Shown here: positions 16,413 to 17,781 of the stretch, piece after piece
Position numbering within the stretch: the stretch's first letter is position 1
Layout of the letters: the number at the start of each line of letters is the position of its first letter
Assembly: GCA_001915025.1 (NCBI GenBank)
Contig: MNDR01000101.1
Coordinates: forward strand, 23,327 to 86,241
Length of the DNA: 62,915 nt
Direction: 5' to 3'
DNA from: Gemmatimonadetes bacterium 13_2_20CM_2_65_7
GTDB taxonomy: Bacteria; Gemmatimonadota; Gemmatimonadetes; Gemmatimonadales; GWC2-71-9
Program-made: the position numbers and the translations under genes
The notes under the pieces: model-generated
What the model was told of the DNA's origin: nothing
Database searches by the model: none
The model's input: only the letters and a program-made list of their open reading frames with translations

Positions 16413-16424
16413 CCTTTAGTCTCC
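16410..16424 (-). promoter_or_regulatory. Shine-Dalgarno and AUC start of the helicase, across the pfkA stop
   Basis: On the minus strand the order is GGAG, ACTAAAGG, ATC. The spacer contains the pfkA TAA. The 8-base spacing is ideal for initiation, while no ATG, GTG or TTG is available in this frame until after the Walker A codons. This suggests initiation or re-initiation at AUC by ribosomes finishing pfkA. Confidence 0.55.
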
Positions 16425-17483
16425 GAAGCTGATGCCGAGATCTCGGGCGGTGGTGATAGTGTCAGAGTCGAGCGGCACGCGTCGTGGTTGAGCGATGGCC
16501 TGCTCGAGAGGAATGGCCACGATGCCCGGCGGTTGGAACGCAACCATCATCCCGAACTGGCGCTCTGCGACGATGCGGATGGCGGCCGCGCCGAACCGCA
16601 GCGCCAGCAGACGGTCGAAGGTCGTGGGACTGCCGCCGCGCTGGAGGTGGCCCAACACCAACGAACGCGTCTCCTTGCCCGTCATCCCCTGAATGGAGTG
16701 CGCCACTTTGTCCGCGATACCGCCGAGCCGCTCGTGCTCGGGGTCGATGAGGGAGACCGTGCCTCCTTTAGGGAGCGCGCCCTCCGCGACCACGACGACG
16801 CTGAAATGGCGGCCTTCCGCTTCGCGGCGCCGGATCTTGTCGCAGACCTTGTCGATGTCGAAAGGAATCTCGGGGATTAAGATCACGTCCGCCGAGCCGG
16901 CGACGCCGGCATTCAAAGCGATGAAGCCGGCATGGCGCCCCATGACCTCGACCACGATCACGCGTTCGTGGCTCTCGGCGGTCGAGTGGACCTTGTCGAT
17001 CGCGTCGGTCGCGGTGGCGACAGCGGTGTCGAAGCCGAAGGTCGACGACGTTCCACCGACGTCGTTATCGATCGTCTTGGGCACGCCGACGACCGGCAGT
17101 CCTTTCTTCCATAGGCTGTGCACTATTCCCAGTGTGCCTTCTCCGCCGATGGCAATCAGCGCGTCGAGGCGATGCGCGTGAAAGGAATCGAGGAGCTCCT
17201 GCGAGCGATCGCGCTCTTCCCACGATCCGTCGGGCCGCTGCACTCGCCATTTGAGTGGATCGCCCCGGCTCGAGGTGCCGAGAATCGTACCGCCGAGGTG
17301 GGTGATGCCGCGGACTTCGTGAGGACCGAGAGGAATGAGGTCCGACTCGCCGAGCAGACTGCCGAAGCCACGCTTGACGCCGAAGCACTCCCAACCGCGG
17401 TGGACCGCGGCCAGGACGGCCGCCCGGATGACGGCGTTCAGCCCCGGCGCGTCGCCGCCGCCGGTGGAGATGGCAATTCTCAC
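16416..17483 (-). CDS. pfkA: 6-phosphofructokinase, ATP-type by active-site residue
   Basis: Phosphorylates fructose 6-phosphate in glycolysis. 355 residues with STGGGDAPGLNAVIRA (nucleotide loop), AIGGEGTLGI, and PKTIDNDVGGTSSTFGFDTA containing the catalytic TIDND aspartates. MGRHAGFIAL and EIPFDI follow. The glycine after GGE corresponds to the position that is Gly in ATP-using and Asp in PPi-using enzymes, while the lysine of PKTIDND is typical of the actinobacterial-like long group. ATP use is therefore likely but not certain. The GTG start overlaps the SelW-like stop (GTGA), indicating translational coupling. The TAA is followed 3 bp later by the proposed AUC of the helicase. Confidence 0.94.
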   Translation of the reverse strand: MRIAISTGGGDAPGLNAVIRAAVLAAVHRGWECFGVKRGFGSLLGESDLIPLGPHEVRGITHLGGTILGTSSRGDPLKWRVQRPDGSWEERDRSQELLDSFHAHRLDALIAIGGEGTLGIVHSLWKKGLPVVGVPKTIDNDVGGTSSTFGFDTAVATATDAIDKVHSTAESHERVIVVEVMGRHAGFIALNAGVAGSADVILIPEIPFDIDKVCDKIRRREAEGRHFSVVVVAEGALPKGGTVSLIDPEHERLGGIADKVAHSIQGMTGKETRSLVLGHLQRGGSPTTFDRLLALRFGAAAIRIVAERQFGMMVAFQPPGIVAIPLEQAIAQPRRVPLDSDTITTARDLGISFGD

Positions 17484-17719
17484 TGCTTGCCGACGACCGC
17501 CTCGCCGATCAGCCGCACTACTTCACCTGGTTCAGCGTGCCGCTTCGTGGCCTTTTTGGAGAACACGCGCCGCCCGTCGACGTCCACTTCGAAGACGCCG
17601 CCCGAGGACTGAATGAGGCGCACCTCGGCATGAGGGTAGGTGTCGCGAATCTCGGCCGCCAGACCGGTGGCCCGAGGTTCGTAGTTTCAAATGACGCAGT
17701 ATTCAATTGTCACCGTCAT
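17480..17719 (-). CDS. SelW/Rdx-family selenoprotein with in-frame TGA (Sec)
   Basis: 79 residues if the TGA at 17687-17689 is read as selenocysteine. The protein starts MTVTIEYCVIU, giving a CxxU redox motif at residues 8-11 after the first beta strand, exactly where Rdx proteins carry CxxC or CxxU. Family sequence continues after the TGA: NYEPRATGLAAEIRDTYP, then SSGGVFEVDVDGRRVFSKK and KRHAEPGEVVRLIGEA. Conservation on both sides of the TGA and overlap of the stop with the pfkA start (GTGA) argue that the whole frame is used. Rdx proteins are small thioredoxin-fold redox proteins, some of which bind glutathione or 14-3-3-like partners in eukaryotes. The bacterial substrate is not known. 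No sel genes lie in the window. A sequencing error or pseudogene is the alternative. Confidence 0.82.
17651..17676 (-). promoter_or_regulatory. SECIS-like hairpin downstream of the in-frame TGA
   Basis: Starting 11 nt after the TGA, CTCGG pairs with CCGAG. A two-base GG bulge on the 3' side separates these from GCCA pairing with TGGC. The apical loop is CCGGTC, with its GG at 22-23 nt from the TGA. The GGTCT in and beside the loop matches the GGUCU of the E. coli fdhF element, and the loop distance falls in the range known for bacterial SECIS elements. It would bind SelB. The first two loop bases are C rather than G, a small deviation from the common rule. Confidence 0.6.
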
Positions 17720-17781
17720 GGCGTGAACGATAGTCGTGCTTGACACACCGCGCCACGGCGCCGACCTTGCGCCACAGCCTT

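Follow-up and report, generated by a model that had tools for sequence, protein, structure and literature searches.

Does a frame that is interrupted by a TGA codon, and that lies directly ahead of a phosphofructokinase gene in Gemmatimonadetes bacterium 13_2_20CM_2_65_7, encode a selenoprotein? The following features of the window (the whole stretch of DNA analyzed here, 62,915 nt) raise this question:

17481..17719, minus strand: predicted gene for a SelW-like selenoprotein of the Rdx family; 79 residues, selenocysteine (Sec) as codon 11
17687..17689, minus strand: in-frame TGA, codon 11, presumably read as Sec
17696..17698, minus strand: Cys (codon 8), the first of the redox residues in CxxU
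16416..17483, minus strand: pfkA, 6-phosphofructokinase, GTG start, 4-nt overlap with the selW stop

The frame starts with an ATG at 17719 and ends with a TGA stop at 17483-17481 (minus strand). With TGA translated as U, the protein begins MTVTIEYCVIUNYEPRATG; its 79 codons include one internal TGA, which occupies the second redox position of a CxxU motif (C8-V-I-U11) located after the first strand. Reading the frame thus bore out the coordinates (17689-17687) and the motif position that an initial annotation of this DNA had given for the internal TGA, and the overlap it had described between the selW stop and the pfkA start is intact (GTGA at 17483). Judged from sequence, it is highly probable that the region encodes a SelW-like Rdx-family selenoprotein, with UGA codon 11 being read as Sec by the dedicated machinery. 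This reading, which the initial annotation had put forward, is supported by the protein family, by homologues with TGA or Cys at the site, by a hairpin, and by the genes for tRNA-Sec, SelA, and SelB.

The read-through protein was assigned to the Rdx family by Pfam (PF10262; E = 1.7e-21, 76.6 bits versus a cut-off of 22.6) and by TIGR02174 (64.8 bits versus a cut-off of 34.2). It is also recognized by a current NCBIfam model, the Campylobacter SelW model NF041051 (SelT/SelW/SelH, SelTWH_Campy), which covers it with 101.7 bits (curated cut-off 88). Two solved structures were matched, those of Atu0228 (PDB 2fa8; profile E = 2.9e-16; Foldseek E = 4.1e-7, TM 0.86) and of mouse SelW (PDB 2npb; profile E = 7.8e-7; Foldseek E = 2.2e-3, TM 0.69); both have the fold and the motif position of the window protein, and 2fa8 contains Cys at the position where the window has TGA. 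An AlphaFold2 model, built with Cys replacing Sec, reached a mean pLDDT of 91.4, with a strand at residues 2-8 and a helix from residue 14. The predicted fold is thioredoxin-like, SelW-related structures being the best Foldseek matches and thioredoxins weaker ones. Profiles, solved relatives, and predicted fold therefore all back the Rdx/SelW identity that had been proposed, and Cys8 and Sec11 (CxxU) would probably constitute a thiol/selenol redox center. For SelW of C. jejuni, full-length translation past the UGA was demonstrated by ribosome profiling and peptides (according to the accessible part of PMC11955535), whereas the window gene is known from sequence alone.

If the internal UGA is to be read as Sec, a SECIS element is to be sought immediately 3′ of it. 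A SECIS-like hairpin had been predicted at the expected distance, and one is located there, which is conserved in relatives:

17651..17676, minus strand: hairpin resembling a bacterial SECIS; its apical loop, GGUCU (17665-17661), lies 21 nt 3′ of the TGA

It falls within the published limits for bacterial SECIS elements (rules as given in the legend of Fig. 2, PMC13188914), and its 24-nt piece folds with −11.1 kcal/mol. An A·C mismatch interrupts its upper stem, a trait found in 26 of 89 distinct related sequences, the window included. Folding of 17690-17640 yielded −18.2 kcal/mol, which 4 of 200 dinucleotide shuffles equaled; since other cuts of the region gave 7, 18, and 35 of 200, folding energy alone is weak evidence. 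A strict scan for perfect stems of at least 6 bp did not pick up the window hairpin, and Rfam returned no family for the region or the whole window, the sole sub-threshold hit, to a viral element on the opposite strand, being attributed to chance. That the hairpin is above chance is concluded because the protein match spans the TGA and because both TGA and hairpin are conserved in relatives.

Codon choice within the hairpin points in the same direction, although the 89 distinct sequences compared are related to one another, which is a weak point of the following statistics. The 7-bp stem was paired in 93.4% of cells, versus 60% or less when it was slid by 1-5, and the MFE of the hairpin was −7.5 or lower in 89/89. 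All 89 were more stable than the mean of resampled codons for the same protein (mean z −2.16); for the window hairpin, 5 of 2,000 such resamplings were as stable. The loop codon (+8) was GGT in 51, AGT in 32, AGG in 5, and GGG in 1 of the sequences, that is, GGT or AGT in 83/89 and GGC in none (0/89), and codon +10 was GCG in 85/89; at a conserved Gly pair, GGC leads (72/92 and 53/92). Thus, the codons of the hairpin are constrained beyond the need of the protein.

Within the phylum, 193 of 395 genomes contained an Rdx match, and 191 of 198 matches carried an in-frame TGA, with 7 lacking it (hand tally of this sample); its placement in CxxU was verified in 25 loci (L027-L051), in three weaker loci, and in a set of 80 loci. 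The latter comprises the best 80 of 199 relatives and overlaps with the 395-genome sample, some contigs being common to both; 75 are from Gemmatimonadota by title, the other five from Terriglobia, Acidobacteria, Deltaproteobacteria, or Krumholzibacteria. TGA was present at the site in all of these 80 loci, and the scan was not biased toward it because, of its two search patterns, one required Cys there and the other disregarded the site. The same was true for 92/92 distinct sequences, each of which also kept the Cys at codon 8, and 8/8 sampled genomes of the genus contained the in-frame TGA. Residues downstream of the TGA stay conserved among relatives, and differences after it distribute over codon positions 1, 2, and 3 as 464, 206, and 757, the third varying most.

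This conservation bears directly on the alternative that the TGA is a real stop and the gene a pseudogene in decay, derived from a Cys-containing member of the Rdx family. It is true that TGA normally ends translation, and that selD scored below the cut-off in this assembly (see below). Still, the notion is refuted by the conservation described, namely, the invariant TGA in the best 80 of 199 relatives and in the distinct sequences, the maintenance of the residues behind it with predominantly third-position changes, and the constraint on the hairpin codons; its probability is very small.

Sec insertion further depends on the corresponding machinery. The assembly (2.68 Mb in 101 contigs) is 81.74% complete. 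It contains tRNA-Sec (74.6 bits, gathering threshold 47; called tRNA-SeC (tca) by ARAGORN), selA (520.5 bits), and selB, which scored above its cut-off and has the SelB winged-helix domains. The search for the Sec machinery was thus positive for these three, but selD remained below the cut-off in the 81.74%-complete assembly (best match 28.4 bits). Of 81 genomes from the family, 73 have a selD match above the cut-off, five of five congeners among them, and the simplest reading of the low score here is an assembly gap. One in-frame TGA was counted by hand in 54 of the 73 selD matches above the cut-off (e.g., L052-L061), which suggests that selD itself is probably a selenoprotein gene in many relatives.

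We infer that Sec is inserted in Gemmatimonadetes bacterium 13_2_20CM_2_65_7 as follows: SelD would supply selenophosphate and SelA would make Sec-tRNA(Sec); SelB, together with Sec-tRNA(Sec), would bind the hairpin just 3′ of the UGA; and the ribosome would decode UGA codon 11 as selenocysteine. The product would be a small thioredoxin-fold protein with its redox center at Cys8/Sec11, encoded by the first gene of a tight pair with pfkA.

The presence of the Rdx gene was also compared with that of the machinery across genomes. In a sample of 24 hand-picked genomes (G407 was left out, its Rdx state not having been searched), a TGA-bearing Rdx gene and selA occurred together in 12/12, one of which (G013) has a weak partial Rdx match, and selA was missing from 11/11 without such an Rdx gene. 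Among 66 genomes of the family, 55 had both Rdx and selD, 5 neither, 4 only selD, and 2 only Rdx (Fisher p = 2.6e-4, relatedness ignored); the two with only Rdx are the genome of the window and G148, where selD was below the cut-off.

Homologues with Sec or Cys aligned at the TGA codon had been proposed as a check on its identity, and TGA or Cys is what they contain. Cys aligns with the TGA in five Rdx proteins that belong to another subgroup (30-38% identity). Closer to the window gene in its context is a Cys form of SelW in genome G129 (locus L142; contig positions 2897500-2897706, minus strand), which also directly precedes a PFK gene. No match for selA was found in this one-contig genome (listed completeness 100), and the locus represents a natural change from Sec to Cys in place. 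There, the loop codon GGT/AGT is replaced by GCG. Loss of the SECIS was considered for G129 and rejected, as a 5-bp hairpin meeting the loose rules persists; only the changed loop is therefore claimed. That this hairpin passes although it follows a Cys codon illustrates the low specificity of the loose SECIS rules in GC-rich DNA.

Could the TGA result from faulty sequencing or assembly, with TGC or TGT (Cys) as the true codon? The assembly is fragmented into 101 contigs; however, the TGA at this site in all of the best 80 of 199 relatives and in all eight sampled genomes of the genus renders an error very unlikely, and the presence of selA with the TGA-bearing Rdx gene and its absence without it (in the hand-picked genomes) also argue against it, leaving next to no probability for this explanation. 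TGA is recoded in other bacteria, but translation of this codon as Trp, or as Cys via a suppressor, instead of Sec is just as improbable here, given tRNA-Sec, selA, and selB in the genome, the ordinary genes ending in TGA (the selW-like gene included), the alignment of the site with Cys in homologues, and the SECIS-like hairpin 3′ of it.

Some observations beside the selW-like gene of the window concern the distribution of the Sec trait. In genus g3, which belongs to the same family, selA is missing from nine genomes that lack Rdx, and G273, the single g3 genome with a TGA-bearing Rdx gene, has selA; for this reason, the whole Sec trait seems to have been lost within the genus. Genome G146 (L146, contig C55, positions 623-862) contains a paralog of Rdx that is interrupted by two TGAs in frame and reads UxxU (UAEU); 21 nt after the second of these, a SECIS-like hairpin with the loop CGUGU follows. 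A search for it in 395 genomes returned itself as the only close match; it is situated on a 5-kb contig and may be contamination. Within the window, six further candidates for Sec genes were obtained mechanically, none of which was convincing by eye; the scan is insensitive, as it missed the selW-like gene itself.

The protein encoded downstream of selW matches Pfam PFK with E = 5.7e-101. Among the best 80 of 199 relatives, PFK starts no more than 450 nt downstream of selW in 54 loci, while the pair is absent from 26, the five loci titled for other groups included. The selW stop and the PFK start share 4 nt in 22 of these 54 linked loci, and gaps extend up to 113 nt. Shine-Dalgarno strength averaged −3.7 for 34 near and −2.1 for 17 far starts, which gave no clear sign of overlapping starts relying on coupling. 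A functional tie of SelW to pfkA may exist. Because the selW stop overlaps the pfkA start, selW could be envisaged as a selenium gate on glycolysis: ribosomes would arrive at the pfkA start with good efficiency only if the UGA is decoded as Sec, and pfkA translation would track the selenium supply. The 54 linked loci and the 22 overlaps among them speak for such a gate, whereas the gaps, the 26 unpaired loci, and the Shine-Dalgarno data speak against it, and it is considered unlikely. Redox control of PfkA by SelW via a cysteine was rejected: Cys214 is present in 51/52 linked PFKs, yet also in 5/5 readable PFK loci from Rdx-less comparison genomes (10 of 15 unread) and was dropped as evidence because genomes with and without SelW share it.

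Upstream of selW, the 20 nt at 17720-17739 (minus strand) contain no Shine-Dalgarno sequence in the window. The stretch CTATCGTT recurs upstream of selW in 10 of 51 relatives read, and TATCGT is positioned 7 nt upstream of the ATG, a layout that resembles a leaderless start. A leaderless promoter ahead of selW was not retained; the sequence is suggestive, and a promoter scan gave no site on the minus strand.

The selenoprotein family is already known in bacteria, and the window gene is a further member of it. According to the available extracts of the literature, bacterial SelW-like selenoproteins have been on record since at least 2005 and, with 48 genes, formed the largest family of the Sargasso Sea set (PMC1088965); with 427 genes, they also ranked with the most widespread families of the GOS set, where Prx adjoins SelW in ten reads and the extract does not mention phosphofructokinase as a neighbor (PMC2398784). 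Few or no Cys homologues of them were reported in Sec-using organisms (extract of PMC1794560). Members with CxxU and a SECIS element are described in the portions available of PMC1088965, PMC1794560, PMC2398784, PMC13188914, and PMC4607533. The window gene has the family (PF10262), the length, CxxU, and the hairpin after the UGA in common with these bacterial proteins; it differs from the Sargasso Sea and GOS SelW in its phylum and in its conserved neighbor pfkA (54/80 loci). No publication on SelW of Gemmatimonadota or on a selW-pfkA pair was found in the open literature searched, and the extracts of PMC12013277 and PMC5330540 contained nothing on Gemmatimonadota.

The Sec trait with SelW is thus common among the Gemmatimonadota; in this soil phylum, most of which is uncultured, small TGA-containing genes are easily overlooked. 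The Cys form in a relative devoid of selA provides a clean natural control for loss of the trait, and the stable selW-pfkA pair is a concrete lead on the role of bacterial SelW.
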